From: a virus
Virus record (IMG/VR): IMGVR_UViG_3300010354_000506
Span: 1 to 27,154 of that record
Direction: 5' to 3' (one strand)
Length of the DNA stretch: 27,154 bases
The notes beneath the pieces were generated by a model. The model had not been told where the DNA came from, searched no databases, and saw only the letters and a list, made by a program, of their open reading frames with translations. The position numbers and the translations under genes were made by a program. How positions within the stretch are numbered: position 1 is the first letter of the stretch; every line of letters begins with the position of its first letter. Positions 14,301-24,898 of the stretch are shown piece by piece.

Positions 14301-14341
14301 CCATCAATCAGAGCGGATAAACTTTTTACTTTAGTTGCCAT
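5393..14341 (-). CDS. giant baseplate/virion protein with YHYH domain in the gp7 position
   Basis: This 2982-aa protein lies between gp6 and gp8, the slot of T4 gp7 (1032 aa), and is nearly three times as long. The N-terminus (MATKVKSLSALIDGQLPDF..., then KKFYASKGTESSIKFLF near residue 215) is the kind of start seen in cyanophage baseplate proteins. Around residues 730-900 there is a YHYH-type module (PIIGFAYDGNPIYGPYGY, then SLDENNGRFCVTPDYPEGTYAYF). Two short motifs recur. One is GSGYxxPPxVxI-like, near residues 567, 607, 647, 1803, 1843 and 2677. The other is FPxxGxxLIGDExIxYxSK with a following RG, near residues 90, 335 and 2930. These suggest repeated beta-rich modules. It starts 7 bp after the gp6 stop, so it is probably in the late operon begun at gp25. 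Role as gp7 analogue is inferred from synteny. Confidence 0.8.
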   Translation of the reverse strand: MATKVKSLSALIDGQLPDFISSEYPKFSAFMQKYYEQLELPGQPIDLISNLTKYRDIDTYTNTLLNQQTTLTQNITGSSTTINVADTSSFPEVNGYILIDDEVIFYKSKTATSFLNCYRNISSTTKLGDLYNPLGFKNISTAESGVGVSHLSGYNVLNISHLFLYSLIKNFESEYLSSFPETALKTSADKSLLIKNIKKFYASKGTESSIKFLFNSLVPSDGPNDPTVYYPKDSTFKSSNGEWVHNYSLKAKILGNVTDIRYLIGGRIVQQQDQNDSAVGYASAVIDNIISIGEGYYEIILAEQSVVGQFSVISETYLTTNLLSNQTTNKRINVYSTTGWRTGTGSLIVGTEEITYKSKTVNQFIIDSRGSNPGTYSANTPVYKKSNVNLNYIDENNQSQNRSILVLGILYNLNQNIPTPYSIPGDSVQIAPSGFDAKNPIIFNKISNSIRWSLNETNIFSSVSSLSDVLVNVSAIYEDDQYYYVASSGYPNHTIGKNNWNITLQDQKNLKLIRKYPTRTTEIYETTTKDVGVLINGVPIRGVKDDETITFGEITKFIVTNKGSGYLNPPKVLVIDTAGVSGVAEGRAVLSGDVVDRIDVVEGGAGFFPPVPTIVITSGRNATAEPVITNGRVTSIRVTNPGEYYTTPPKVIITDSSGKGRFANFTAVISDDGELTGFIKNDEGKFYDPLSTTVTIQAVGSGSEAISFVRTWTKNRFEKLKSNLDDSYGHYFLNNNPSLGYGYNYVANPKRLRVAIGDNLDNIGNVPNTLTHSPIIGFAYDGNPIYGPYGYQNPGNSTSSVVRMTSSYKLKVSRPGGPSTTAYSLGSFIEDYEYIHRSGSLDENNGRFCVTPDYPEGTYAYFITINTDNTPVYPYFLGKNYYSIPVDSNYNKTISQDDIPLNVSRLRTSRTKNNGDGVVAFIEDTKTGSISNIDVVSSHNSFSVDGVVDVDYSGTGGSDILAKISSVKGKSVNSLLSSFGIYKFFDYFNATINSQLISTGVTSYPVNVNSLGFSTTIDARNIVDYTLTSTDVLMRDNSIVILLPPSLDKCVKLTTESPCYLYDGDILTQSGTLATGRVVGNVFNSKDIVLKEVTKKFENINSSATNTVSASIEVISVVVDKVSSYSLGSQISQTNGKQAIILSSSNNRINLASNTFELNEPIIFSSAFSGLLTDKIYYVVNPTPTNFQVSSTPNGNPVLISDNTAPGAVVLNQKAFGVVLESTEEKNTCKIRVLRGNFEVSSNYFLKTSDLRDTVGSKIVQKNPLSYDIKVLTNTDKIAILKTNQNHGVSVGDLIDVNIRPDDTNTTTTIYVRRRIYQKVKLNTPTYNKILSDTGIGRVLVLNSGSDYAYDANGNATYTNVELIFSDQTKCRNETGQITSDLTTAVIGNPGNTNNAKATIRVTNGLVTSIQITSKGKFYAKGDLLTVLPNSIYRNPTSSSTRSLIVEVDHAGFAKLNTQLFLNEVNSISINDLLQLGTEIVKVTSVNTVNNSLNVLRAQENTIASDHINNEIVEAYLPKYLFNFNYQLGNTPSDPYISSYNPITRELEVTFDSGSTLTTINPLNSSSFFYDQNTPRKIVGVVDILQSPTYKFEFSYDNINWTKNPITPVQKYYKYKFDTSHPSLSGSFLEFSPSGNYNIITTEVEKSPIIPGFANSFTTLKIGFGANIASNTFTDPKDTEFTNYYYFDKNNIIDSEKSYLKIIEDPLQGEHKIVYTTPLEMVYEVSNYPQHSGSGVISYTTTSSGAVGEINSVRIVNSGKNMSKLPVVTGVQPSSSTECKVDVVWNENTGSITGISIINSGSNYSKPRAVLVKGDGRNYSFDVRKNADNTISAVVLLNGGTGFTSKPEIRIIETDVKAYFSSKEIGVPSKVSIIDNGKGFNSDVTTKRKITSDRILILKNFPEKAFFENEIIEQYDGSTKIATGYVSKEGWKEGSNVLRLNRVEGEFKTNLSIVGKTQNNTAIVVSSFVGEFNYDVKSYFDNIGYYASDRSKISSSSQKLADSYFYQDYSYVVRSRTPIDIWRRLIKSSTHPAGFQLFGEVAIDSVGVAKINSIQPKIDHVSSIQLWDPEKNKITVEKSYRTVTNVILSSSFVDKQRGKGSLFVNTFDDSETQSYEFYLTPEFNGYFDSNGNRSGTKVFTMKISGSNNNLFIPTQENIVITLDGVIQQPGKAFTISGTQITFNEAPLGYRNSIGQSISASSYVEGVDTPKQKFVGRALRYKNTTVNSTYFRTITDISSQFDGIKNTFNLLNSSNSSDIILESGDNLIVTIDGVLQNPGITPTFPVDRSYYIKRSVTPNQIVFTEPPKSGQTFGAYSISNYELAEIDDSFVSGSFYGPFIMRRRSNKKPLEVFNDNNLLVFVDRVLQKKTRNYTVQGSSITFTNPILPGQKVVILYFYGRSASTTVTAFNYEEDTYFNLVKINLNYVPPLAQYADRIAYQGNSLHNNSAIGKAKGVSVTPTGSVLLLQAQNAPFVTNKNITIVNGLASGLGDLIIPSSAIISVSAFETDDETIGVLQKDNSGWLIGSSLGKKIPNFVDIGDQIKIDGETKYRTILSLPDKVSKSQYNTNSSIANNFFGKLTVTPNDETYKGEGLTVFAKIENGKISSLEWNDRKYNQYGFGKIQPGAYGYENAPKLVFVPQPLRDEGGSIISPAQGGGAEGFVVVSGGEVIDVVLTNPGSNYLTSPKVYVAKGYDIIKNPEKKVNSKFEITFFPKISTTLLISSIVNLEYGFAVHEEPSIISPTELLASSVVITTGINTLSNTPNIADIKYDSVSIKQELHLTAILNSVVSLTKDIIVNVHTSWDNVKESTIKKIQPEIIKTIPMGCMDFYAEEVNTPISYSPITMGPTLKKFENGAFNDSGFINIGGITLDQFERTYGNITIQDFELRPNSAKAINEDTLMNLGYGSTNEYGAYLQLPLTTSSTIIYIANTDRFPSSGKLLVGDEIVTYTSKLSDRFIGVSRGQYNTTTKTHNAGDYLRTLN

Positions 14342-14347
14342 TTATTT

Positions 14348-16153
14348 CTATTCTTGAATTAAAGTAAATGAACTTTTCTCAATATCTACATCAAGATAGA
14401 CTTGACGCTTAGCAATAATATCATTATAGAGTGGTTTCAATCTAATCTCTATTTTATTGTCGGAGAAAGATCCTTTTATGATATTTAAATTGTATAATCT
14501 GACATCACCTTTTACATAATCAATTTCACCCTGTTCACCATTCAAAATAATTTTATCACCAGTTTGAGGATCTAAACGATAGAGAACAACTTTTGAATCT
14601 CTATCTTCAATATAAACAACATAGTTTGGATATTGTTGTACAACAAATCCAGTAGAAACTAATGTTTGAACATCAATATCGTCATCAAATGGATTGTTAA
14701 AACAAAACTCATAATATGCACTATTATTTAACGATGGATAGAAATCTTTTCTCATTCTAATATCAGTTAGATTAGAACGAATAGATCTATCAGATGCATC
14801 AATTGTGCTAATTGATTTACTGTATCTAAACTTACCTCCAAATTTCTCTGTATCTGATAAATTGATATAATTTGCTACATTAGAAATTACTTTTTGCTTA
14901 ACTTGATCAGATGTTAAATTAGTCTGTGATTGATCATAAAATATTCTGGAAATTAACTCAACAAAGATAATTGATGGATCTACAATTTCTGGAGTAATTG
15001 CACCAACAGAATATTTTCTAAGTTCTTGTAAAATAACAGATTTTGTATAAGAAGAAAGAAAACTAAGATTTCTTGGTTTGATTGAAATTTTTACTTTTCC
15101 ATATTCAGGTGGATTTTCCTCTTCTCCGCCATAAGAAATAACATCTGCTGTTGCTGGGTAGATGCGACGAATAATTGCTTCGTAATCTAAAGATGTTACT
15201 GCACGATTCTGAGCTCCAAATGATGCAGGAGCATTTCTTTTAATACTTTCAATAGTTTCGATCGATTCACCGCCAAATGCTTTGGTTAGAGCAGTTACAC
15301 TATTAACAGTGGTGGAGAATGATGATGTACCAGCAATATCAGTGATTACACCATTGTATGTAAATACCGAAGCACCATTTGTAGCAGCAGCATTCGTTGT
15401 TAAATAACTGATTTCAATAACTTGACCAGTTAGTAACTTTTTCCCAAAAATTCCATCACCAAATGTAATTTTATAGTTCTCATCTTCAACTTCTGTTACG
15501 AAGTAGGTGGGTGATGTTGCACCTACATTTAAAATATTATCAGATTGTACAAATTTTTCAAAAGAAGAAGAACTTGAACTCTCAAAAACATTTACACGAA
15601 TGGATGATGTATCGATATTAGCGTTCTGTAAGACAACGCTATATGACCCTGTATAAGCAGGAACGGTGTATCTGTTGGAAATATACGTTCCTTCGTATAT
15701 TTTGATATTTTGAAAATTTACTGTGTTATCTGGTAAAACATTTGCTTGTACGTCATCAAGTAAAACATACTGATATAATACATCGTCTACTAAAGTTAGG
15801 AATGCATTTCCTCTCTTCAAAAATACTGATTGTGGTAATGTATTGCCAATTAGTGTTACATTTAAATTTACTGCTGTTGCAGATGCCACAGCAGAGCGTG
15901 GAGTATACCCAAGTTGCTTTGCGAGAGATACTACGTTGTCTCTGAGAGTCGCTGAGTCAAGAAATGACTCATTGACAAGCATATTAGCATTAAAAGATGT
16001 GTAATATGTGTTATATGCCAACACATCTAGTAGCATACCGAGAGTAGAACCCTCAAAATCGTAATCACTAAACTCGGAATTTGCTCTTAGATAGTCTCTA
16101 AGAGCATTTCTTATATCAAAATAGTCTAAACTTGTTAATTGATTGTATGCCAT
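14348..16153 (-). CDS. 6: baseplate wedge protein gp6 (baseplate J-like)
   Basis: This 601-aa protein is close in size to T4 gp6 (660 aa), which forms the continuous ring of the baseplate inner wedges. It opens MAYNQLTSLDYFDIRNALRDY, with an early VLAYNTYYTSFNANMLVNESFLDSA-type stretch typical of baseplate J/gp6 proteins. Residues 215-245 carry ITFGDGIFGKKL, the FGDGxFG signature of the family. The ATG overlaps the gp25 stop by one base (TAATG), with AGAGGA just upstream as the ribosome binding site, so translation is probably coupled to gp25. The order gp25-gp6 is that of T4. Confidence is high. Confidence 0.92.
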   Translation of the reverse strand: MAYNQLTSLDYFDIRNALRDYLRANSEFSDYDFEGSTLGMLLDVLAYNTYYTSFNANMLVNESFLDSATLRDNVVSLAKQLGYTPRSAVASATAVNLNVTLIGNTLPQSVFLKRGNAFLTLVDDVLYQYVLLDDVQANVLPDNTVNFQNIKIYEGTYISNRYTVPAYTGSYSVVLQNANIDTSSIRVNVFESSSSSSFEKFVQSDNILNVGATSPTYFVTEVEDENYKITFGDGIFGKKLLTGQVIEISYLTTNAAATNGASVFTYNGVITDIAGTSSFSTTVNSVTALTKAFGGESIETIESIKRNAPASFGAQNRAVTSLDYEAIIRRIYPATADVISYGGEEENPPEYGKVKISIKPRNLSFLSSYTKSVILQELRKYSVGAITPEIVDPSIIFVELISRIFYDQSQTNLTSDQVKQKVISNVANYINLSDTEKFGGKFRYSKSISTIDASDRSIRSNLTDIRMRKDFYPSLNNSAYYEFCFNNPFDDDIDVQTLVSTGFVVQQYPNYVVYIEDRDSKVVLYRLDPQTGDKIILNGEQGEIDYVKGDVRLYNLNIIKGSFSDNKIEIRLKPLYNDIIAKRQVYLDVDIEKSSFTLIQE

Positions 16154-16548
16154 TATCCTCTAGTTCTCTCTAAAAAGAGGTCGATCGTGTCTGATTTTTC
16201 TTCCAATCCAACTACAGAATAATCAATAGTAATGTCATACCCATCTTCTTCAAAATTTGGAACCACATCGACGGAGTTTAACAATACTCTTGGTTCAAAA
16301 GCTTCAATCGTATATTGTATTTCTTCACGAACAGTGGTTGCAGTAATGTAATCAATTGGGTCAAACAACAATTTTGTTATTTTACTACCAATATTTGGAT
16401 TAAAAAAACGTTCTCCTGGATAGGTGGTCAATAAATTTTGCACAGATTTTTTGATTGCGACAAAATCCTTGACCACCATGAGGTCGTTGGTGATCGGATG
16501 CTTATCAAAAGTGATGCTAAGATCTTTAAACGACCTACTAACAGGCAT
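16153..16548 (-). CDS. 25: baseplate wedge protein gp25 (GPW/gp25 family)
   Basis: At 131 aa this matches T4 gp25 (132 aa), the wedge subunit that nucleates sheath assembly and belongs to the GPW_gp25 lysozyme-like fold family. The segments DLMVVKDFVAIKKSVQNLLTT, PGERFFNPNIGSKITKLLF and VREEIQYTIEAFEPRV are the hallmarks of the family: the GERxxxPxxGxxxxxxLF core, followed by a helix with IxxxIxxFEPRV. A late promoter (TATAAATA) lies 21-28 bp upstream of the ATG. There is no clear Shine-Dalgarno. It heads the gp25-gp6-giant protein late operon. Confidence 0.95.
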   Translation of the reverse strand: MPVSRSFKDLSITFDKHPITNDLMVVKDFVAIKKSVQNLLTTYPGERFFNPNIGSKITKLLFDPIDYITATTVREEIQYTIEAFEPRVLLNSVDVVPNFEEDGYDITIDYSVVGLEEKSDTIDLFLERTRG

Positions 16549-18221: not shown

Positions 18222-18629
18222 TCAACAATCGGAAGATTCCACATCAAACACCAGTAGAAGATTGATACGCTTTTGACGACACTTGTTGGGTTGTGTGTTA
18301 ATTACAGTAGGAGGGACCACTACAGGCGCTCCTGACGATCCTTGGAAGAAACTGGGAGGTTGATACTGCACCTGAGCAGGTGGGGCATACTGAGCAACCT
18401 GCGAACCTTCCTGAGCTTTGATCCATGCTTCAACTTCTTTCATTTTGGCATTAATGCCTGGTCCTGAAGTAATATGAATTCTTGTACCATTTTTCAGAAA
18501 ATATGTCGCACCCATTGGTTTATCTGACCATTCGGTAGAAATTGCTTGTGAATGAGCGGCAGTTGCAAAGGCACTCAGAGGAAATGAGAGGGTTGCCAAC
18601 GCCATTCCGAGAACACTGAGAGTTTTCAT
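18222..18629 (-). CDS. small exported protein with signal peptide, 135 aa
   Basis: The N-terminus MKTLSVLGMALATLSFPLSAFA is a textbook signal peptide: basic start, hydrophobic core, and SAFA before a likely cleavage at residue 22 or 23. The mature part has STEWSDKPMGATYFLKNGTRIHIT, an acidic helix, and a Pro/Gln-rich region (residues 80-110). Two Cys occur, at about residue 117 and at the very C-terminus. An exported phage protein could act at the host envelope or periplasm, but I recognise no family. It has a good promoter and a terminator, so it is a single-gene unit. No Shine-Dalgarno is visible. Confidence 0.7.
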   Translation of the reverse strand: MKTLSVLGMALATLSFPLSAFATAAHSQAISTEWSDKPMGATYFLKNGTRIHITSGPGINAKMKEVEAWIKAQEGSQVAQYAPPAQVQYQPPSFFQGSSGAPVVVPPTVINTQPNKCRQKRINLLLVFDVESSDC

Positions 18630-18640
18630 GATGTTGTCTT

Positions 18641-18654
18641 TTGAGATATCTCAA
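18641..18654. promoter_or_regulatory. 14-bp perfect palindrome across the likely start of transcription
   Basis: TTGAGATATCTCAA is a perfect palindrome that abuts the -10 hexamer and covers the expected transcription start of the exported-protein gene. This is where a repressor operator would sit. Confidence 0.45.
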
Positions 18655-18682
18655 TCTTAGCAGTCCCTCTACGCTTTGTCAA
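18654..18682 (-). promoter_or_regulatory. sigma70-type promoter for the exported protein gene
   Basis: TTGACA (18677-18682), a 17-bp spacer and TAAGAT (18654-18659) lie on the minus strand, 25 bp upstream of the ATG. This also argues against the overlapping 69-codon ORF across the promoter. Confidence 0.8.
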
Positions 18683-18951
18683 GCTCTCTATAAACATTCT
18701 TCCGAGTTCTTTGAGTACTATGAAAATATACGAAAACTCTTCTCTTTTGGTGGTTCGAGTACTTAGAGGTTTTTGAGTCATTTTGATTTGGGAAAAATTT
18801 TTTTTATGAACGTGTAATCTATCGAGCGTTTTCAAAGTTTTGTAGGTTAATAGTATCTATGACTTTTCGCTCGGCCGCGCCGCTATAACGATAACGTTAT
18901 ACCGTTACTGTCCGACTGCCCCCTGAGGCGGGGGCATGGTAGGATGGCAGG
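18683..18951. other. intergenic segment at the edge of the GC-rich island
   Basis: No gene seen. The left part is AT-rich. The base composition changes sharply near 18870, at a GGCCGCGCCGC stretch. TATAACG-ATAA-CGTTATA at 18882-18899 is a small dyad. Confidence 0.5.
18915..18936 (-). terminator. GC-rich hairpin closing the island
   Basis: On the minus strand GCCCCC and GGGGGC pair across a 6-base loop, 17 bp after the stop of the HicA-like gene. No T-run follows, so it may be a weak terminator or a 3'-end stabilising hairpin. Confidence 0.45.
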
Positions 18952-19137
18952 TCAGGCGCTGGCGAGCGAGCGGCGGAATTGCTTCTCAATGTTCGCCAGT
19001 GCTCGGTGGTCGCTGAGGGTGCTGCCCGTCGTGACGACTGCCCCGCTAGGGTGCTGCCATACACGGTGGCGCTTGTGCCGCACCTCGATAAATCCAAACT
19101 TCGCAGCGATGGGGGCGATGGTGTCGCGTCGTGCCAT
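18952..19137 (-). CDS. HicA-like small protein, 61 aa
   Basis: A 61-aa basic protein, MARRDTIAPIAAKFGFIEVR at the start. The layout (helix, GFxxVR, KRHRVWQHPSGAVVTTGS, SDHRALANIEKQFRRSL) follows the HicA fold: a strand pair with a central His, then HP.G..V.., then a helix beginning with SDHR. HicA proteins are dsRNA-binding mRNA interferases; phage-borne solo forms of this type are common and are not proven toxins. Here the usual G-S-H catalytic triplet is replaced by K-R-H (H24). No HicB-like partner lies next to it. It starts 3 bp after the 64-aa gene, forming a two-gene operon under unit 19362-19420. Confidence 0.6.
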   Translation of the reverse strand: MARRDTIAPIAAKFGFIEVRHKRHRVWQHPSGAVVTTGSTLSDHRALANIEKQFRRSLASA

Positions 19138-19140
19138 GAG

Positions 19141-19335
19141 TCAGTCCTCGTGGGTGAACAGGGGCAGGGCGGCGATCGCTTCATCATGCCAGACCTCAGC
19201 GAACTGCCCCGCGATGGCGTAGGCGCTGATGCCCAGTTGTGGTTGCAGGCGTGACCCCATAGGAGAGTCGTCGTTGCACCGCCCCGTCCATACGATGCGA
19301 CGGGTGGCGAGGTCGGTTGACTGAGAGAGGATCAT
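19141..19335 (-). CDS. hypothetical protein, 64 aa
   Basis: Start chosen at the ATG at 19335 (MILSQSTDLATRRIVWTGRC), because the shared CGACCC leader ends directly at it; the longer frame would run through the promoter. It contains RIVWTGRC and QLGISAYAIAGQFAEVWHDEAIAAL. No family recognised. First gene of a pair with the HicA-like gene, whose ATG lies 3 bp beyond its stop. Confidence 0.6.
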   Translation of the reverse strand: MILSQSTDLATRRIVWTGRCNDDSPMGSRLQPQLGISAYAIAGQFAEVWHDEAIAALPLFTHED

Positions 19336-19361
19336 GGGTCGGTGTCGTGTGATCTGAGAGA

Positions 19362-19420
19362 AGTCTACAGGGGGGTGGCGCTCACCAGCGCCCCTCAGTG
19401 TCACTTGCCCAACCGTCACG
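19362..19420 (-). promoter_or_regulatory. dyad-promoter unit for the 64-aa/HicA-like pair
   Basis: Dyad half-sites CGTGACG and TGACACT (19397-19420), then 29 bp, then -10 TAGACT (19362-19367). No -35. The dyad lies inside the 3' end of the upstream 53-aa gene, whose stop falls in the 29-bp spacer. Confidence 0.68.
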
Positions 19421-19543
19421 CATGGCACGGCGGCGGTCGATCTCATCGGCGTCGAAGCGGTCGTCGAAGTCGAAGCGGTCGAAGTCGAAGATCTCGCCAG
19501 GGGCGTCTTGGATCTCAGAGAAGCAGGTGTCGAAGTCAGTCAT
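19382..19543 (-). CDS. acidic hypothetical protein, 53 aa
   Basis: Start set at the ATG at 19543 (MTDFDTCFSEIQDAPGEIF), preceded by the CGACCC leader. Residues 21-38 are an Asp/Phe repeat (FDFDRFDFDDRFDADEID), then RRRAMRDGW. The repeat arises from tandem TCGAAG-like DNA units. Function unknown; the acidity could suggest a DNA mimic or a partner-binding peptide, but nothing in the sequence proves this. Confidence 0.55.
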   Translation of the reverse strand: MTDFDTCFSEIQDAPGEIFDFDRFDFDDRFDADEIDRRRAMRDGWASDTEGRW

Positions 19544-19566
19544 GGGTCGTTTCGTTTGATGAGTCA

Positions 19567-19625
19567 ATTCTACAGGGTCGGGCGCTCAGCGGCACTCGGT
19601 TTGGGACACTTCGCACATCGTCACA
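19567..19625 (-). promoter_or_regulatory. dyad-promoter unit for the 53-aa gene
   Basis: Half-sites TGTGACG and TGTCCCA (19602-19625), then 29 bp, then -10 TAGAAT (19567-19572). The dyad is within the coding 3' end of the upstream 49-aa gene, whose TGA is in the spacer. Confidence 0.65.
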
Positions 19626-19735
19626 GCGAGGCGGTCGGCGTGTGCCTTGGTGATCTGCAGACCAGCGGACAGGGCGTTGCCACCAACCCAGAGGGTGATG
19701 CCGAGCATGGTCAGGGGGAGGATGAGGCGGGTCAT
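19586..19735 (-). CDS. small protein with hydrophobic N-terminus, 49 aa
   Basis: ATG at 19735 follows the shared leader ending CGACCC. The protein starts MTRLILPLTMLGITLWVGG, a hydrophobic stretch that could be a signal peptide (NALSAG follows) or a membrane anchor. The C-terminal part is polar, with Cys residues at about 41 and 48. Function unknown. The presence of the common leader and dyad unit supports it as a real gene despite its size. Confidence 0.55.
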   Translation of the reverse strand: MTRLILPLTMLGITLWVGGNALSAGLQITKAHADRLAVTMCEVSQTECR

Positions 19736-19759
19736 GGGTCGTTTCGTTTCGATGTGATC

Positions 19760-19818
19760 AGTCTAGACGCTGAAGGTCTCGTGACGCTGCAGGAGTGTGC
19801 GGTTCACCCACTGTCCCA
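19760..19818 (-). promoter_or_regulatory. dyad-promoter unit for the 49-aa gene
   Basis: Half-sites TGGGACA and CGCACAC (19795-19818), 29 bp, then -10 TAGACT (19760-19765). This is the most degenerate dyad of the set. The stop codon TAG of the upstream 81-aa gene is the first half of the -10. Confidence 0.55.
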
Positions 19819-20008
19819 CGCTGCCGTTGCGATCGATCATCAGGCGCACCATGTCACGGCGGCGGCAGTGGTGACCAGACACGCTGCCCGAGTGCCACTG
19901 CACAATGGCGGCACGGGTGAGAGGCGACAGGATGACACGCTGACAGGCAGTGCTAGGGCGCTCCACGTTGATGAACACGGGCAGGTGGTTCAGAGCGAAG
20001 TCGATCAT
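19763..20008 (-). CDS. hypothetical protein, 81 aa
   Basis: Start at the ATG at 20008 (MIDFALNHLPVFINVERPST) at the end of the shared leader. Mixed alpha/beta look, basic in the middle (HHCRRRDMVRLMIDRNGS) and with a final LLQRHETFSV. No family recognised. Its 3' end carries the dyad and part of the -10 of the next unit, so regulatory and coding sequence overlap. Confidence 0.6.
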   Translation of the reverse strand: MIDFALNHLPVFINVERPSTACQRVILSPLTRAAIVQWHSGSVSGHHCRRRDMVRLMIDRNGSVGQWVNRTLLQRHETFSV

Positions 20009-20030
20009 GGTTCGTTTGGTTGACTCTGTT

Positions 20031-20090
20031 AGTATAGGGGCAGGCGATGCAGGAAAGGGGGCAGCGTGTGCCACCCCCTCGACTGTCCTA
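20031..20090 (-). promoter_or_regulatory. dyad-promoter unit for the 81-aa gene
   Basis: Half-sites TAGGACA and TGGCACA (20067-20090), 30 bp, -10 TATACT (20031-20036), then the full AACAGAGTCAACCAAAC leader. The TAG stop of the ArdA-like gene is the first triplet of the dyad. Confidence 0.72.
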
Positions 20091-20513
20091 GTAGTCGCTG
20101 AAGATGGCGACCTGAGCGTATTTCACTTCACAAGAGGTGAAATCGTAGCGAAGCGAAGTATCCCACGTCGCTTGCCAATCTACAACCAGAGCGGTGGGAA
20201 CTTCGTAGAGTTCGCTGTAGTATTCCTCTGCGAAGTCTGCTTCGCTTTGATACCAACCACGAAAGCGAGAATCGCAGTCCTCGATGTTATCAATGCCGTT
20301 CTCGTCAGCATAGGCATCGACTGCATCGTATCCGATTGCTTCACCACAACGGACGTACTCTTCGTAGTTATCGACGAACATACGCTCGTTATAGTTATCG
20401 ATGAATTCCAGCATGTCATCGAGAGCGTAATTCTCTTCGATCAGTTCATCGATCTTCTCGACAGTGTTAGCATCGAGAACTTCTTTGTAGTTAGCAGTCA
20501 AGGTCACGGTCAT
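20088..20513 (-). CDS. ArdA-like antirestriction protein, 141 aa
   Basis: An acidic 141-aa protein. Residues 83-125 (RFRGWYQSEADFAEEY, VPTALVVDWQATWDTSLRYDF) match the C-terminal ArdA pattern: a YxGxxxSxxDFAxE helix, then a DYxAxxxDLxYDx segment. ArdA proteins mimic B-form DNA and block type I restriction enzymes, and cyanophages often carry ArdA-like genes. Residues 16-60 are helical and acidic. It is shorter than plasmid ArdA (about 165 aa). An antirestriction job early in infection would fit its host-type promoter with dyad. The fold assignment is by motif only. Confidence 0.7.
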   Translation of the reverse strand: MTVTLTANYKEVLDANTVEKIDELIEENYALDDMLEFIDNYNERMFVDNYEEYVRCGEAIGYDAVDAYADENGIDNIEDCDSRFRGWYQSEADFAEEYYSELYEVPTALVVDWQATWDTSLRYDFTSCEVKYAQVAIFSDY

Positions 20514-20535
20514 GGGTTGTTTGGTTGACTCTGTT

Positions 20536-20595
20536 AGTATAGGGGGTCGGGTGGGGGTCTGTGGCGCCCCCTGTGCCAGTTCTCAGAGTGTCACA
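20536..20595 (-). promoter_or_regulatory. dyad-promoter unit for the ArdA-like gene
   Basis: Half-sites TGTGACA and TGGCACA (20572-20595), 30 bp, -10 TATACT (20536-20541), then AACAGAGTCAACCAAAC and the ATG. No -35. The TGA stop of the upstream 54-aa gene lies in the first half-site. Confidence 0.75.
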
Positions 20596-20755
20596 TGCCG
20601 TTGAGGAAGTCGGCAAGCGCCTCTTTATACTCTGCCTCGGTGGCAAAGGTGCGACCGTGGATAGTACGGGGGTACTCATGCTTAGGGGCAGGAGTGGTGG
20701 GCAGATCACGACCCTTGTCGAGGATCTGCTGAGCGTAGGGGTTGTTTGTTTTCAT
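20591..20755 (-). CDS. hypothetical protein, 54 aa, possibly leaderless
   Basis: A 54-aa protein, MKTNNPYAQQILDKGRDL at the start and FATEAEYKEALADFLNGM at the end, with a central HEYPRTIHGRTF. The ATG lies only 6 bp after the -10 TAGACT, so transcription should start at or next to the A of ATG, giving a leaderless or nearly leaderless mRNA. No family recognised. The regular dyad unit upstream and the stop embedded in the next dyad support it. Confidence 0.62.
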   Translation of the reverse strand: MKTNNPYAQQILDKGRDLPTTPAPKHEYPRTIHGRTFATEAEYKEALADFLNGM

Positions 20756-20761
20756 GCTGTT

Positions 20762-20820
20762 AGTCTACAGGGTCAAAGGGCGGATGCGAGGGGGCGTGTG
20801 CCACCTTGCCGACTGTCACC
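20762..20820 (-). promoter_or_regulatory. dyad-promoter unit for the 54-aa gene
   Basis: Half-sites GGTGACA and TGGCACA (20797-20820), 29 bp, -10 TAGACT (20762-20767). The TGA stop of the 82-aa gene lies in the first half-site. The leader is missing: ATG follows 6 bp later. Confidence 0.73.
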
Positions 20821-21064
20821 CTCCACCGTACACATACTCTACGATGCCTGCCTCATCAAGTCCCACCGATTCGATGACAGTAACCTTAGCATTGTTGAAC
20901 TCTTTTTGCACTTGTTCATCCCTCACACGTTCACCATTACAATCAGTGAAATACCCAAACTTCTCCATAAAGATCTGTTCACACTGAGGCATAGATTCTG
21001 CTGCGATGATTGCCATGCCATCGGTATAATCGTAGAGAACTTCTTTGAGAATGTAGAGTTTCAT
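20816..21064 (-). CDS. conserved small phage protein, 82 aa
   Basis: An 82-aa protein starting MKLYILKEVLYDYTDGMAII, with AAESMPQCEQIFMEKFGYF, then DGE-type turn and VTVIESVGLDEAGIVEYVYGGG. The pattern of an initial strand, helix, and closing strands looks like a compact alpha/beta fold. I believe similar proteins occur in cyanophages and other large phages, without known function. The ATG follows the AACAGCAAACAACCA leader. Confidence 0.68.
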   Translation of the reverse strand: MKLYILKEVLYDYTDGMAIIAAESMPQCEQIFMEKFGYFTDCNGERVRDEQVQKEFNNAKVTVIESVGLDEAGIVEYVYGGG

Positions 21065-21085
21065 TGGTTGTTTGCTGTTGAGATC

Positions 21086-21144
21086 AGTCTACAGGGTCAG
21101 GGGCAGGATCGGTGGTGGCCGCGGCCACCTTGCCGACTGTCACA
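21086..21144 (-). promoter_or_regulatory. dyad-promoter unit for the 82-aa gene
   Basis: Half-sites TGTGACA and TGGCCGC (21121-21144), 29 bp, -10 TAGACT (21086-21091). The second half-site is altered by a perfect 16-bp palindrome GGTGGCCGCGGCCACC (21114-21129). The TGA of the upstream 61-aa gene is in the first half-site. Confidence 0.68.
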
Positions 21145-21325
21145 TCACGTAGATGCCATACTGCTGATAGTGGGCAGGGTAGTTCTGACGCCAGTTGGCA
21201 AGGCGAGCGATCAGGGTAGCGTCGTCGGCATCGTGGTGCAGTTTCACCAACCAATCGGGGCAGGTGCCATGCTCGGCGGTGAACATCATCAGCAGGGAGG
21301 AGATGACGCGGGAGCGGTTGATCAT
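21140..21325 (-). CDS. hypothetical protein, 61 aa
   Basis: A 61-aa protein, MINRSRVISSLLMMFTAEHG at the start, with CPDWLVKLHHDADDATLIARLANWRQNYP and a Tyr-rich end (HYQQYGIYVM). It looks helical. No family recognised. It has its own dyad unit and leader. Confidence 0.62.
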   Translation of the reverse strand: MINRSRVISSLLMMFTAEHGTCPDWLVKLHHDADDATLIARLANWRQNYPAHYQQYGIYVM

Positions 21326-21348
21326 GGGTCGTTTGCTTTGACTCTGTT

Positions 21349-21407
21349 AGTATGGCATCGGATGGGGGGCAGCGGGGCGATTGGTGGACACTTGCCCAAC
21401 TGGCACA
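21349..21407 (-). promoter_or_regulatory. dyad-promoter unit for the 61-aa gene
   Basis: Half-sites TGTGCCA and TGTCCAC (21384-21407), 29 bp, -10 CATACT (21349-21354), then AACAGAGTCAAAGCAAAC. The dyad is intergenic here. A GCCGCGGCC stretch abuts it. Confidence 0.7.
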
Positions 21408-21425
21408 GCCGCGGCCGAAAGTTTG

Positions 21426-21620
21426 TTATACTAAGACGTGACGATAATCAATCGATTTGATACACCAACCAGTTGCACATGTGATCTCTTCAACTAAATC
21501 ATCTTCATCATCTGCTTCCCAAATGTGACCAATCGTGTCGTCTAAAATGTCATTTTTCTCTTCATCATGCAGGTCATCATCGAAATCAAACTCGATGGAA
21601 GTAACTTGGAATTGCATCAT
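21426..21620 (-). CDS. conserved acidic small phage protein, 64 aa
   Basis: A 64-aa acidic protein (MMQFQVTSIEFDFDDD, then TIGHIWEADDEDDLVEEITCATGWCIKSIDYRHVLV). The IWEADDEDDLVEEIT and TGWCIKSIDYR segments look like a conserved cyanophage family of unknown function. GGAGG is just upstream. The ATG overlaps the TGA of the preceding gene by one base (TGATG). Last gene of a three-gene operon begun at 21938. Confidence 0.7.
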   Translation of the reverse strand: MMQFQVTSIEFDFDDDLHDEEKNDILDDTIGHIWEADDEDDLVEEITCATGWCIKSIDYRHVLV

Positions 21621-21793
21621 CAATCCTCCAACAGTTCGGGATAGTATTGATTCACTTCTTCAGTCAATTCTTCATCTGAATACTTATCGTAACCCTCCAT
21701 CAAATAATCATAACAAAGGCAGGTCATTGTCTTAAGGTCCATGTCATCCAGCATTTGCTGAACCATTTGATCTTGCAATTCAGAACGATTCAT
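21620..21793 (-). CDS. conserved small phage protein, 57 aa
   Basis: A 57-aa protein starting MNRSELQDQMVQQMLDDMDL and ending SDEELTEEVNQYYPELLED. The DDMDLKTM...YDYLMEGYDKYSDEELTEEVxxYYPELLED pattern resembles small helical proteins found widely in phages; function unknown. It starts 1 bp after the stop of the 47-aa gene and overlaps the start of the 64-aa gene. Confidence 0.7.
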   Translation of the reverse strand: MNRSELQDQMVQQMLDDMDLKTMTCLCYDYLMEGYDKYSDEELTEEVNQYYPELLED

Positions 21794-21794
21794 G

Positions 21795-21938
21795 TCAGGC
21801 AACCTCATCACGAAGTTCGGTCAGGATGTCATGCAGTTCGGCAACATTAGCACCGACGATCTCACTCACCTCATCCCAATCATCGTGGAACTCAATCAGT
21901 GACAGCAGGGCATCTACCTGCTCAAAGGTTAATTGCAT
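21795..21938 (-). CDS. small acidic helical protein, 47 aa
   Basis: A 47-aa protein starting MQLTFEQVDALLSLIEFHDD and ending ELHDILTELRDEVA, probably two helices. It is the first gene of the 47/57/64-aa operon. It has a long (about 135 bp) leader from the unit at 22081-22139. No family recognised. Confidence 0.62.
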   Translation of the reverse strand: MQLTFEQVDALLSLIEFHDDWDEVSEIVGANVAELHDILTELRDEVA

Positions 21939-22080
21939 GGTTGAAAGTGTAAAGGGGTGAGGGTGCCCCTAGTTCCCTCATTCTAGCAGTGGTGCTAGTT
22001 CCTGGAGCAAGTGAAGGGATCTTCACTAGGACCTATCCCGAGAGCGGGTGGTTTCGCTAGGAGGGTTCGCTTCTGTAGTA

Positions 22081-22139
22081 AGTATAGGGGCAGGCGGCGC
22101 CAAATCTACGGGGCGTGTGCCAGTTTCCAAAGTGGCACA
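22081..22139 (-). promoter_or_regulatory. dyad-promoter unit for the 47/57/64-aa operon
   Basis: Half-sites TGTGCCA and TGGCACA (22116-22139) make the most symmetric dyad of the set (inner CTTT/AAAC also near-symmetric). 29 bp then -10 TATACT (22081-22086). The dyad is not in or next to a gene end. Confidence 0.74.
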
Positions 22140-22239
22140 GAATGCCCGTCAGGGCGCTGCCGATGCCTTAGAATATTGGCACAAGCGAAGGAGGGGCGGG
22201 GTAGCCCTGATGATGCCAACGGTCGCCACGCCCCCTGCC

Positions 22240-22257
22240 TTGAAATAATTATTTCAA
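22240..22257. repeat. 18-bp perfect palindrome
   Basis: TTGAAATAATTATTTCAA is a perfect inverted repeat in an otherwise GC-rich stretch. It could be a protein-binding site; no gene start lies within 100 bp. Confidence 0.4.
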
Positions 22258-22264
22258 TTGGTTA

Positions 22265-22290
22265 CAAAAAAGGGGCATCGCTGCCCCTGT
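22265..22290 (-). terminator. rho-independent terminator after the 42-aa gene
   Basis: On the minus strand AGGGGCA-GCGA-TGCCCCT is followed by TTTTTT. It begins 5 bp after the TAA of the 42-aa gene. Strong and canonical. Confidence 0.88.
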
Positions 22291-22293
22291 ATG

Positions 22294-22422
22294 TTAGAAA
22301 TCGTATTCTTCTTCGATTACATTTTCCAGAGCATAATCATCAACGATTAAACTCTCACCATCCAGGAAGATATCTGCGATCTCCTGATCAACAATCTCCT
22401 GATACATTTCAGCAGTAGTCAT
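22294..22422 (-). CDS. small acidic protein, 42 aa
   Basis: A 42-aa acidic protein, MTTAEMYQEIVDQEIADIF at the start and ENVIEEDYDF at the end. GGAGGA lies about 7 bp upstream of the ATG at 22422, a real Shine-Dalgarno, unlike its neighbours; an in-frame ATG 15 bp upstream overlaps that site and is less likely. A canonical terminator follows. Only a weak -10 (TATATA at 22447-22452) is seen and no dyad. Function unknown; its high Asp/Glu content is notable. Confidence 0.7.
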   Translation of the reverse strand: MTTAEMYQEIVDQEIADIFLDGESLIVDDYALENVIEEEYDF

Positions 22423-22464
22423 CGAGAATTCCTCCATTGTTGTTTGTATATAGGGGGGCAATTG

Positions 22465-22779
22465 TCAGTTCAGACGCATACCCGAGAAGAAAGGTACGGT
22501 CTCTCCATTAACACTGATGAACCACTCACCTTTCTTTTGAAAGATACGCTCACCAGGACAACCATGCTCACTCAGAATAGCATTCAGGCGAGACTTCGTG
22601 GTGACAGTTTGCCAACCACCATCAAACAGGCGAATCCAATTGTCACCAATCTGGGCAATATTGTTGCCGTGAAGGAATACGAAACTCACACCATCTTGGT
22701 TGCTCACCATAGTGTTGTCGAGTTGCCAATCACGCTCGTTGGTGATAGCATCGTTCATCAGGCGTTCGATCTTACGCAT
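22465..22779 (-). CDS. conserved phage protein, 104 aa
   Basis: A 104-aa protein starting MRKIERLMNDAITNERDWQL. Residues 22-62 contain NTMVSNQDGVSFVFLHGNNIAQIGDNWIRLFDGGWQTVTTKSRLNAIL, a pattern (VxLHGNxIAxI, then GWxTxTTxSRLNAxL) I associate with small proteins spread among unrelated phages, function unknown. The C-terminal half has FQKKGEWFISVNGETVPFFSGM. It has a unit with both the dyad and a -35 box. Confidence 0.75.
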   Translation of the reverse strand: MRKIERLMNDAITNERDWQLDNTMVSNQDGVSFVFLHGNNIAQIGDNWIRLFDGGWQTVTTKSRLNAILSEHGCPGERIFQKKGEWFISVNGETVPFFSGMRLN

Positions 22780-22803
22780 TGGTCTCGTTTGGTTGACTCT
22801 GTT

Positions 22804-22862
22804 AGTATGGACGGGATCGGGGCAAAAGTCAAGTGGTCTGTGCCACTTTCTGAACTGTCACA
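22804..22862 (-). promoter_or_regulatory. dyad-promoter unit with -35 for the 104-aa gene
   Basis: Half-sites TGTGACA and TGGCACA (22839-22862), 29 bp, -10 CATACT (22804-22809). This unit also has a -35 TTGACT at 22827-22832 with a 17-bp spacer. The TGA of the upstream 77-aa gene is in the first half-site. Confidence 0.78.
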
Positions 22863-23091
22863 CGGCAGCGATATCGGCATCCTCCAGATGGTAGTATACC
22901 TGTTCTGCTGATTTGTTAACAAACATCAGAACTTTGCAGGCATTGTTGATCATAACTTGTTTGCCGCCATTCTTATACCAATTGGCCGCGGCGGTATAGG
23001 TGAACTTAACAACACCCACCACGATAGCAGCAATGGTGGCAATGTTGAAGATCAGAGTGTTAACGAAAGATTTCACGAAAGTGTTGTTCAT
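22858..23091 (-). CDS. small membrane protein, 77 aa
   Basis: Start at the ATG at 23091 (MNNTFVKSFVNTLIFNIATIAAIVVGVV), because the longer frame would cross the promoter. Residues 8-30 form one transmembrane helix. The rest is a soluble tail (KNGGKQVMINNACKVLMFVN, then ending LEDADIAAV). Possibly an inner-membrane protein acting on the host early; no family recognised. It is the first gene of the island. Confidence 0.65.
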   Translation of the reverse strand: MNNTFVKSFVNTLIFNIATIAAIVVGVVKFTYTAAANWYKNGGKQVMINNACKVLMFVNKSAEQVYYHLEDADIAAV

Positions 23092-23116: not shown

Positions 23117-23145
23117 AGTATTGCACCGATCAAGGCAAAAGTCAA
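23117..23145 (-). promoter_or_regulatory. sigma70-type promoter for the membrane protein gene
   Basis: TTGACT (23140-23145), 17-bp spacer, AATACT (23117-23122), then TACAGAGTCAAACAAAT, close to the island leader. The sequence from -35 to leader is near-identical to the unit at 22804-22832, but no dyad is present. Confidence 0.8.
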
Positions 23146-23198
23146 CCCCCCTAACGATCACCAAAACTTATGGGTCTCATCAGGGGGGCTTATGGTTG

Positions 23199-23264
23199 AG
23201 TTTTCCACAGGGTTGTGGAAAACTATTGAAAGTTTTCCACAGGTTTTAGTATTTCTGTGGAAAA
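23199..23264. repeat. four TTTTCCACA boxes in two inverted pairs
   Basis: TTTTCCACA at 23201-23209 and 23233-23241, with reverse complements at 23214-23222 and 23256-23264. The first pair has a 4-bp loop; the second has a 12-bp stem (AGTTTTCCACAG) and a 14-base loop region. TTTTCCACA is the DnaA box of cyanobacterial chromosomes. The second pair lies right after the stop of the 54-aa gene, so a 3'-end hairpin role is the main alternative. After the GC part come A residues rather than T, which argues against an intrinsic terminator. Confidence 0.6.
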
Positions 23265-23267
23265 CTA

Positions 23268-23432
23268 TTAATATTCATAATCACCATCAAATTTCAATTT
23301 TTTCTGTTTCTTTGGTGTGCGACCCTTATTTTGTACTTTAACGCCATACTGATATTCTAACTCTTGCTCATTAAAGTTGTCGATTTCGTTATAGAAATTC
23401 TCTTTGAAGTTGCCGCCCTTTTGTTTAGCCAT
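23268..23432 (-). CDS. small basic hypothetical protein, 54 aa
   Basis: A 54-aa protein starting MAKQKGGNFKENFYNEIDNF and ending KKQKKLKFDGDYEY. Two basic clusters (KNKGRTPKKQKKLK-like) flank an acidic middle. No family recognised; the charge suggests nucleic-acid contact, which is inference. It lies between the TTTTCCACA boxes and the KTSC-like gene. No clear promoter or Shine-Dalgarno. Confidence 0.62.
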   Translation of the reverse strand: MAKQKGGNFKENFYNEIDNFNEQELEYQYGVKVQNKGRTPKKQKKLKFDGDYEY

Positions 23433-23509
23433 TGATTTGAAATGTGTCCTGAGAGGTGTCTAGAATCGTCTGTAAGGGATGTTGATAACCAAATTGGTGC
23501 AATCACCCC

Positions 23510-23538
23510 TTGACAAACATATTTATCTGTGCTATTGT
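23510..23538 (+). promoter_or_regulatory. forward sigma70-type promoter, antisense to the KTSC-like gene
   Basis: TTGACA (23510-23515), 17-bp spacer, TATTGT (23533-23538) on the plus strand. It would fire from the 3' end into the antisense of the 23538-23780 gene. It could make an antisense RNA, or be a chance match. Confidence 0.45.
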
Positions 23539-23780
23539 CAGTTGGTCAACAGTTGCAGAGTGCCACTGGAGATATTTTGGTTGATGAAAGATCCAACCGA
23601 GATATCTTCAGAATCGAATTCTGCCAGCAATTGTTGATCGAAACTCACTGCATCTTCAGTAGAATAAGTATAGTTCTTCTCTGAAGAATTATACTGAATT
23701 GATACAGTGTTGTTCTCAGTATCAATCACAATGTTTTTGATAGCTGAAGAAGGAATTTCTTGGTAGTTTTTAACAGTCAT
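23538..23780 (-). CDS. KTSC-like small protein, 80 aa
   Basis: An 80-aa protein. The order SSAIKNIVIDTENNTVSIQYN, NYTYSTEDAVSFDQQLLA and ISVGSFINQNI resembles the KTSC domain layout (S-S-x-I-x-x-I-x-Y, a strand pair with Y-x-Y, a helix, and G-x-F-x-N-x-x-I). KTSC proteins are small, of unclear function, and common in phages and bacteria. Here several consensus residues are changed. It has a consensus promoter and no Shine-Dalgarno. Confidence 0.62.
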   Translation of the reverse strand: MTVKNYQEIPSSAIKNIVIDTENNTVSIQYNSSEKNYTYSTEDAVSFDQQLLAEFDSEDISVGSFINQNISSGTLQLLTN

Positions 23781-23807
23781 TCGATTGTTTTGATCGATTA
23801 CTTAGTA

Positions 23808-23836
23808 ATAATACCATGATTTTCTTAGGTTGTCAA
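23808..23836 (-). promoter_or_regulatory. sigma70-type promoter for the KTSC-like gene
   Basis: TTGACA (23831-23836), 17-bp spacer, TATTAT (23808-23813) on the minus strand, 27 bp upstream of the ATG. Confidence 0.85.
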
Positions 23837-23857
23837 GGGTTTTGTGATTAGTTCTGC

Positions 23858-23906
23858 TAATATAACATTAATATTATATTATTTTAACTTATTATAATTA
23901 TTAAAT
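23858..23906. other. 49-bp extreme AT tract
   Basis: Only two C and no G in 49 bp on the plus strand. It sits next to the inverted repeats, where a DNA unwinding element would be expected if this is an origin. Confidence 0.5.
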
Positions 23907-23907
23907 C

Positions 23908-24042
23908 CTCAAAAATCTCAGAAATCTCAAAATTCAACTTTTTTAAGATTCTGAAAAACTTGAAAATACTCGGAAAACACAGAAATCTCAGTTTTGCCGT
24001 TTTTGAGATTCTGAGATTTTTGAGATTTCTGAGATTTTTGAG
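23908..24042. repeat. 25-bp perfect inverted repeat with iteron-like GAGATT units
   Basis: Left arm 23908-23932 and right arm 24018-24042 are exact reverse complements, 85 bp apart. The right side is an array of GAGATT-containing units about 10-11 bp apart (GAGATTCT, GAGATTTTT, GAGATTTCT, GAGATTTTT). The interval holds further partial copies (AGAAATCTCAG). No gene is supported across it. Confidence 0.65.
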
Positions 24043-24193
24043 TTTTGTGACAAACGCTTGACAACTCGTTAGGTCGCGTGCTAAGACAACAACAACTCCA
24101 CACATTTCAGAGTCTTCGCTGAGTTCTGTGAAGTATTTGTAGACACATTCTACTGCACCTTGACAACATAATACTAACGTTATACATCACCAA

Positions 24194-24225
24194 AGTATAT
24201 TTAATTAAACCTTTTTAAATATACT
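24194..24225. repeat. AT-rich 10-bp inverted repeat
   Basis: AGTATATTTA (24194-24203) and TAAATATACT (24216-24225) pair around a 12-bp centre. There is a second AT-rich patch here, close to the next TTTTCCACA pair. The 24106-24271 stretch holds no gene; possible forward -35/-10 pairs start at 24059 and 24163 but are weak. Confidence 0.45.
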
Positions 24226-24249
24226 CTAAACAACACAAATCTTCCGCAC

Positions 24250-24273
24250 TTTTCCACAACCCTGTGGAAAACT
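24250..24273. repeat. inverted TTTTCCACA pair, inverted copy of 23199-23222
   Basis: TTTTCCACA (24250-24258) and its reverse complement (24263-24271). The 24 bp 24250-24273 read on the minus strand are identical to 23199-23222 on the plus strand. It lies directly after the TAG of the oxygenase gene. Confidence 0.65.
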
Positions 24274-24898
24274 AACTATATTTGTTTGATATTAGTCTCA
24301 TCAGTGGATTAACTTTATCTTCTGGTGCATCACACAATAGATTAAAACTAATACTCATTCTAAGTTTTTTACTTGGTGTGACATAGTGTTGTAATGCACT
24401 AGGAAAGATCACGACATCACCTTCTGATGTTATTTCATTTGTATGATGTAACGATTCAGAGAATGGAAAATATCCATCAAGAATAGGTGGTGAAAAACTA
24501 AGTGTATTTGGTTCATCAAGTTCTAGAAAGTATGATCCAGATAAATCATGACCGAGATGAGTATGTAATGGTGCCCATGAATTTGGTGGATAGATATTCC
24601 ACCAAATACCAATCAAATGAGACTTTGCTGGCATATAAAACGAATCATCTGATTTAAGTTCACCGAACATAGCATCGAGTGGTTTCCACACTATTTCATT
24701 CACCATTTGTGAATCAAAGTATGTTGGTTCTTGATGATAGTGTGAATTAATCATTGGTGATTTATCCCATTGATAATCCACATCATCTTTATGCTGATTA
24801 TAATAATCAAGCATGATTGGTTTAAGTTTAGATTTAATTTGTTCATGAGCAGCAACTCGATGAACATAGAGCCAAGGTGATGGAAAACGGTATAACAT
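24272..24898 (-). CDS. 2OG-Fe(II) oxygenase-like protein (phage type), 208 aa
   Basis: A 208-aa protein of the phage 2-oxoglutarate/Fe(II) oxygenase type common in cyanophages. The core is WAPLHTHLGHDLSGSYFLEL (residues 108-127; likely iron ligands H112 or H114, in the pattern HxHxxxxxSGxYYL), then GDVVIFPSALQHYVTP (H171) and KLRMSISFNLL (R180 for the 2OG carboxylate). Substrate unknown. An acidic second ligand is not in the usual HxD place; H-x-H is seen instead, as in this subgroup. The ATG overlaps the stop of the second oxygenase by one base (TAATG), so the two are coupled. Last gene of the ten-gene operon; no U-run terminator follows. Confidence 0.8.
   Translation of the reverse strand: MLYRFPSPWLYVHRVAAHEQIKSKLKPIMLDYYNQHKDDVDYQWDKSPMINSHYHQEPTYFDSQMVNEIVWKPLDAMFGELKSDDSFYMPAKSHLIGIWWNIYPPNSWAPLHTHLGHDLSGSYFLELDEPNTLSFSPPILDGYFPFSESLHHTNEITSEGDVVIFPSALQHYVTPSKKLRMSISFNLLCDAPEDKVNPLMRLISNKYS

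Follow-up and report, generated by a model that had tools for sequence, protein, structure and literature searches.

Host-type DnaA boxes mark a candidate oriE-like replication origin in T4-like cyanophages

Introduction

Where does a T4-like cyanophage begin to copy its genome, and could it borrow the initiator of its host to do so? These phages are among the most abundant viruses of the sea, and no experimentally known replication origin was found for them in the literature searched. The question was raised by positions 23199-24273 of a 27,154-bp IMG/VR virus record (the window, meaning the whole stretch analysed), where an earlier note, made from the sequence alone, had seen a possible origin recruiting host DnaA.

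Plasmid origins of the P1, F and R6K type join host DnaA boxes, iterons and an AT-rich region on mobile elements; these plasmids encode a Rep protein. Phage T4 is not known to depend on host DnaA. For cyanophage Syn9, Weigele reportedly predicted a single theta origin in 2007. A review that cites this prediction (PMC2984593) gives no details of it and does not mention DnaA; the predicted Syn9 origin is likewise one per genome in the same phage family.

Results

Genome fragment and box arrays

The window is a fragment of a T4-like cyanophage (Kyanoviridae) with the baseplate genes gp25, gp6 and gp8 and a gene for a DUF4815 protein. Its nearest relatives among the contigs fetched are G005, G006 and G007, with gp25 identities of 62-79%, and among isolates its gp6 is about 52% identical to those of S-PM2, S-RIM32 and Syn1. 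The genes used below are:

16153-16548, minus strand: gp25 baseplate gene, used as syntenic anchor; the arrays lie 6.7-7.7 kb away
23268-23432, minus strand: 54-aa ORF, its stop codon adjoining pair 2
23538-23780, minus strand: 80-aa ORF, PHROG 4357 (unknown function), between arrays A and B
24272-24898, minus strand: 2OG-Fe(II) oxygenase ORF, its stop codon abutting pair 3

Elsewhere in the window, a single 2982-aa ORF with a YHYH domain (5393-14341) occupies the gp7 position between gp6 and gp8 and is far bigger than T4 gp7. The ORF at 24898-25569 matches PHROG 274, labelled endonuclease V (2e-39), against a weak Pfam match to 2OG-Fe(II) oxygenase, and the PHROG label looks doubtful. The GC content is 43-64% at 18501-22900 and about 30-39% in the rest of the window; no family matches were found for four ORFs tested in this GC-rich stretch, which may be a recent acquisition or partly non-coding.

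Scanning of the whole window revealed six exact copies of the DnaA box TTTTCCACA, at 23201 (+), 23214 (-), 23233 (+), 23256 (-), 24250 (+) and 24263 (-), which face each other in three pairs whose spacers measure 4, 14 and 4 bp, just as the earlier note had counted them. Shuffled versions of the window contained 0.58 copies on average and three at most, and none of 100 shuffles reached six. The pairs form two arrays separated by about 1 kb, at distances of 6.7-7.7 kb on the upstream side of gp25:

23201-23222: inverted pair 1 of TTTTCCACA, 4-bp spacer (array B), conserved in G005 and G006
23233-23264: inverted pair 2 of TTTTCCACA, 14-bp spacer (array B), conserved in G005 and G006
24250-24271: inverted pair 3 of TTTTCCACA, 4-bp spacer (array A), kept in G005, where an unrelated gene apparently abuts

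It was also correctly noted that two of these palindromes come immediately after stop codons, namely the minus-strand codons TAG (24272-24274) and TAA (23268-23270). Adjoining array B is a C6...G6 inverted repeat, CCCCCCTAACGATC...CATCAGGGGGG (23144-23189), which is conserved in G005 and G006 and lies just before a minus-strand sigma-70-like promoter (23145-23117).

One locus per genome

Of 19 T4-like cyanophage isolates, 10 have exact boxes paired within 35 bp, always 2-8 kb upstream of gp25, and no such pair was found elsewhere in any of the 19 genomes. In an unbiased count over eight complete isolates, every 9-mer was scored for enrichment in the 10 kb upstream of gp25, and TGTGGAAAA/TTTTCCACA ranked first, with 30 copies inside this region, which makes up 5.4% of the sequence, and 17 outside (binomial p 1e-26, a figure that ignores the relatedness of the genomes). 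In S-PM2, annotated tRNA-Asn and tRNA-Leu genes overlap the box array (19177-19333; L123 7949-8105); ARAGORN predicted no tRNA there, so both genes are probably annotation errors.

DNA site or RNA hairpin

The earlier note had named 3'-end RNA hairpins as the main alternative to DnaA binding, and had proposed comparing the boxes in relatives as DNA and as RNA stems. To this end IMG/VR was scanned for TTTTCCACA pairs in each orientation, kyanophage-like contigs were kept and the sets were dereplicated at 70%. In the resulting 206 kyanophage-like loci, the spacers of convergent pairs peaked at 4, 14-15 and 25-26 bp with none at 7-11 bp, and those of direct repeats at 2-3, 12-13, 23, 33 and 43 bp. 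At a period of 10.5 bp the Rayleigh R was 0.78 for convergent pairs (n=108) and 0.70 for direct pairs (n=145), with p-values of 1e-29 and 1e-31 computed as if the pairs were independent; the terminator-like control palindrome AAAACCACA...TGTGGTTTT gave R=0.16 and no periodicity. Such a pattern is what a protein binding DNA in helical register would leave.

Several properties of the window do suit a hairpin: besides the two palindromes at stop codons, folding as RNA is stable (z -4 to -8), and an alternative divergent hairpin at 23213-23242 has a T-rich tail. This was the only hairpin flagged in the search for a U-tract, and no T-run follows any of the three convergent stems on either strand; the convergent pairs instead start with TTTT and finish with AAAA, the reverse of a terminator. 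Moreover, no stem in which one mismatch had been compensated was found in 16 regions examined, most of which hold 1-3 exact box pairs. In G005 the sequence beside palindrome 3 cannot be aligned to the 2OG gene shared by the window and G006, and a different gene seems to abut, but the boxes of the palindrome are invariant. We therefore prefer a DNA site to an RNA hairpin, because the spacers are periodic, direct pairs, which cannot fold, are equally frequent, and the palindrome outlasts the difference in the neighbouring gene. Together with the lack of compensation, these observations led us to reject a hairpin or terminator as the conserved function, and the comparison favoured DNA. A known structured RNA was likewise rejected, as Rfam gave no match in the window or in L731, L594 and L595.

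Pairs of TTTTCCACA with the same helical phasing (R 0.52-0.56) also occur in viral contigs that do not resemble kyanophages, and other phages may therefore make use of DnaA-box arrays as well.

Comparison with host origins

TTTTCCACA is the published cyanobacterial DnaA box, and the DNA-binding domain (domain IV) of Cyanothece DnaA binds two copies 2 nt apart in vitro (PMC4674748). As a positive control, we located arrays of TTTTCCACA a few hundred bp upstream of dnaN in Calothrix, Sphaerospermopsis, Anabaenopsis and Phormidesmis, and also in two genomes of the picocyanobacterial family; the spacers of these dnaN-linked arrays are mostly 2-3 and 11-13. Exact TTTTCCACA is present upstream of dnaN in 16 of 28 picocyanobacterial sequences, and when up to one mismatch is allowed these upstreams contain 3.5 boxes per 450 bp against 0.11 after shuffling. 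Exact clusters were not found at the oriC of WH7803 and RCC307, which display degenerate boxes only, and such clusters were rejected for these two strains; they are present in other cyanobacteria and in part of the host family. Repeats of the TAGTAGTAG type, matching the DnaA-trio, accompany TTTTCCACA and TTTTCCCCA in 18 of the 28 picocyanobacterial dnaN upstreams (L735-L762).

The phage locus thus resembles cyanobacterial dnaN-linked oriC in the box TTTTCCACA and in the spacings 2-3, 11-13 and 23-24. It differs in that convergent pairs are prominent, no dnaN or dnaA was found beside the arrays in gene searches of the window, and the phage arrays lack the DnaA-trio TAGTAGTAG seen at host oriC, so that a trio was rejected for them. 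Complete records of 20 phages, 19 of them cyanophages and the other T4, yielded no DnaA C-terminal domain, and the DnaA in question would therefore be that of the host.

Away from dnaN, WH7803 (about 1,819,370; L689 869-921) and Synechococcus UW140 (L695 1009-1062) have in common a convergent exact pair 35-36 bp apart, with TTCTCCACA about 170 bp off; this is possibly a DnaA-regulating locus.

AT-rich segment between the arrays

Between arrays A and B lie four further features:

23808-23836, minus strand: sigma-70-like promoter TTGACA-17-TATTAT (11/12), conserved in relatives and facing away from the antisense element, with the AT-rich segment between the two
23858-23906: AT-rich tract, candidate unwinding element, 47 of 49 positions A/T
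23903-24044: 9-bp-spaced repeats ATCTCAAAA / TTTTGAGAT in two inverted blocks, adjoining the stretch of lowest stability in the 9 kb upstream of gp25
24050-24090, plus strand: conserved promoter-like element CTTGACA-17-TAAGAC, directed towards array A and antisense to the genes; its PWM score is 41.2, and no other site of the window scores above 15.4

Both the 49-bp AT tract and the iteron-like repeats had been described before and were found again here, the arms of the inverted blocks reaching 96-100% complementarity. In the window, S-RIM32, Syn1 and G006 the least stable 100 bp is enclosed by the arrays; it lies adjacent to the boxes in S-PM2 and away from the arrays in P-SSM7, S-SM1, Syn33, Syn9 and S-ShM2; low stability between the arrays holds in part of the phage family only. 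Cumulative GC skew displayed no inflection at the arrays and gave no origin signal; one-strand coding dominates it, and the skew minimum was rejected as an origin mark.

A conserved antisense promoter-like element

The element at 24050-24090 (+), about 160-200 bp from array A, had escaped the earlier sequence-only reading and was discovered by a search for overrepresented words in the sequence up to 120 bp from each of 161 non-redundant arrays. Its consensus is GGcTTGACa.tCG.TaGg..GCGTGCTAAGACtACAAC.cc..agcACATTt. A PWM was built from 27 elements of metagenomic contigs only and applied to eight isolate genomes, held out by genome and not by lineage (the training contigs may be relatives of the isolates); each genome yielded one strong match (38.9-48.5), with the next best at most 19.4 and a block-shuffled maximum of 18.9. 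All eight matches sit at the array on the strand opposite gp25. Downstream of the element comes an AT-rich stretch and then the first box, usually at a distance of 47-101 bp, with 64-65 bp the commonest value.

In the reverse test, kyanophage-like contigs were chosen by the element alone, with the boxes unused in selection. An exact box lay within 250 bp downstream of the element in 55 of 69 kyanophage-like loci, compared with 3.9% of random windows, and in 35 of 49 contigs never fetched through boxes. At these 69 loci the element is antisense to most genes in 62 and sense in 6, several of the latter being plain coding matches. As a putative early-type promoter, the element has the place and orientation expected from T4 oriE, with a -10-like hexamer, TAAGAC, that matches sigma-70 poorly. 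A host origin of the element was rejected, as 101 picocyanobacterial genomes contained a single, chance-like match; in this element, too, the phage locus differs from host oriC.

Elements and boxes do not always occur together. The element is strong in S-RSM4 (about 140,175), P-RSM4 (about 53,229) and P-SSM4 (about 51,093) and weak in P-HM1 (about 34,507), and close exact box pairs were not found in these four phages, which indicates that DnaA is not strictly required family-wide. Conversely, P-TIM68, S-SM2, G008 and G009 have boxes and no clear element, and neither element nor box pairs were found within the stretches examined of P-SSM2, S-SSM7, S-CRM01 and S-TIM5.

Correspondence with T4 oriE

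T4 oriE is a known origin with an antisense layout (PMC3016281). In the T4 record it lies at 79,355, upstream of gene 6 and separated from it by 1.7 kb that include gene 5.4 (PAAR), and its primer RNA is annotated as complementary to the gene 5 transcript; in S-ShM2 a PAAR gene likewise separates the array from gp25-gp6. The cyanophage locus is thus alike in position, upstream of gene 6 in the baseplate block, and in orientation, since the T4 primer RNA is antisense to a late gene and the cyanophage element is likewise antisense to genes. T4 oriE has 12-nt iterons with RepEA/RepEB and no known DnaA boxes, whereas the cyanophage locus has exact host-type boxes and a conserved promoter-like element of its own. 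For the 12-nt direct-repeat iterons of T4 oriE, the repeats of the window, spaced by 9 bp, are at most a possible counterpart.

Discussion

We conclude that positions 23199-24273 are probably a T4-like cyanophage replication origin at an oriE-like position that recruits host DnaA. The DnaA-box reading of the earlier note is upheld by the match to host oriC, helical phasing, clustering at a single locus, T4 oriE synteny and invariant boxes without stem compensation, and support at the sequence level extends to the arrays themselves, the conserved antisense element, the local low stability and the lack of a DnaA domain in 20 records. From these features we infer binding of host DnaA, transcription from the element and firing of the origin. 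Evidence against a simple DnaA-dependent model comes from the relatives without box pairs, the missing DnaA-trio, the absent skew signal and the low stability found in only part of the family.

Bacterial DnaA also acts as a transcription factor, and the locus might instead be a regulatory region in which host DnaA, or a protein reading the same site, controls early divergent transcription or the antisense RNA while replication begins elsewhere. The conserved promoter-like element adjoining the arrays, with boxes on the downstream side of its putative start, agrees with such control, but we regard it as unlikely, given that oriE, the counterpart of the locus in T4 by position, is a known origin whose layout is likewise antisense (PMC3016281) and that an AT-rich tract flanked by two arrays about 1 kb from each other resembles an origin.

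The arrays could also be a decoy that binds and titrates host DnaA, blocking new rounds of host replication, with no origin present. Such a role would draw on the rise in phage copy number during infection and on the exact consensus of the phage boxes, compared with the mostly degenerate boxes of marine host oriCs such as that of WH7803. Each genome has just a handful of exact boxes at one locus, however, and a decoy needs neither the T4 oriE synteny, nor an antisense promoter about 65 bp off, nor an AT-rich segment between arrays; sequestration accounts for the layout less well than an origin does, and we consider it improbable. RNA hairpins or terminators at the 3' ends of the 54-aa ORF and the 2OG gene are hardly credible in view of the phased spacers, the direct pairs and the uncompensated stems.

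Taking the locus as an origin, we propose the following course for its action. The two DnaA-box arrays about 1 kb apart would flank the AT-rich segment, from which two promoters would diverge. Host RNA polymerase would start an antisense non-coding RNA at the TTGACA-17-TAAGAC element, and the helically phased boxes would be bound by host DnaA. DnaA and divergent transcription would then open the AT-rich segment, and either the RNA or the opened bubble would let the phage helicase and polymerase begin the first round. That T4-like cyanophages as a group recruit host DnaA to begin genome replication at an origin in the oriE position, with phased boxes, an AT-rich tract and a conserved antisense promoter as its parts, is a proposal we see as evenly balanced.

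What appears to be new is a putative T4 oriE-like origin carrying host DnaA boxes. The literature searched, which did not include the main Syn9 studies, contained no report linking cyanophages to DnaA boxes in phage DNA.

For T4-like cyanophages, the isolates Syn9, S-PM2, Syn33 and S-ShM2 included, these results name one place per genome and two sequence parts as a candidate origin, and the lineages that keep the promoter-like element without box pairs offer a natural comparison for DnaA dependence. If the proposal is true, initiation in these phages would combine the RNA-primed mode of T4 with the DnaA mode of bacteria, and phage replication would be tied to the cell-cycle initiator of the host.
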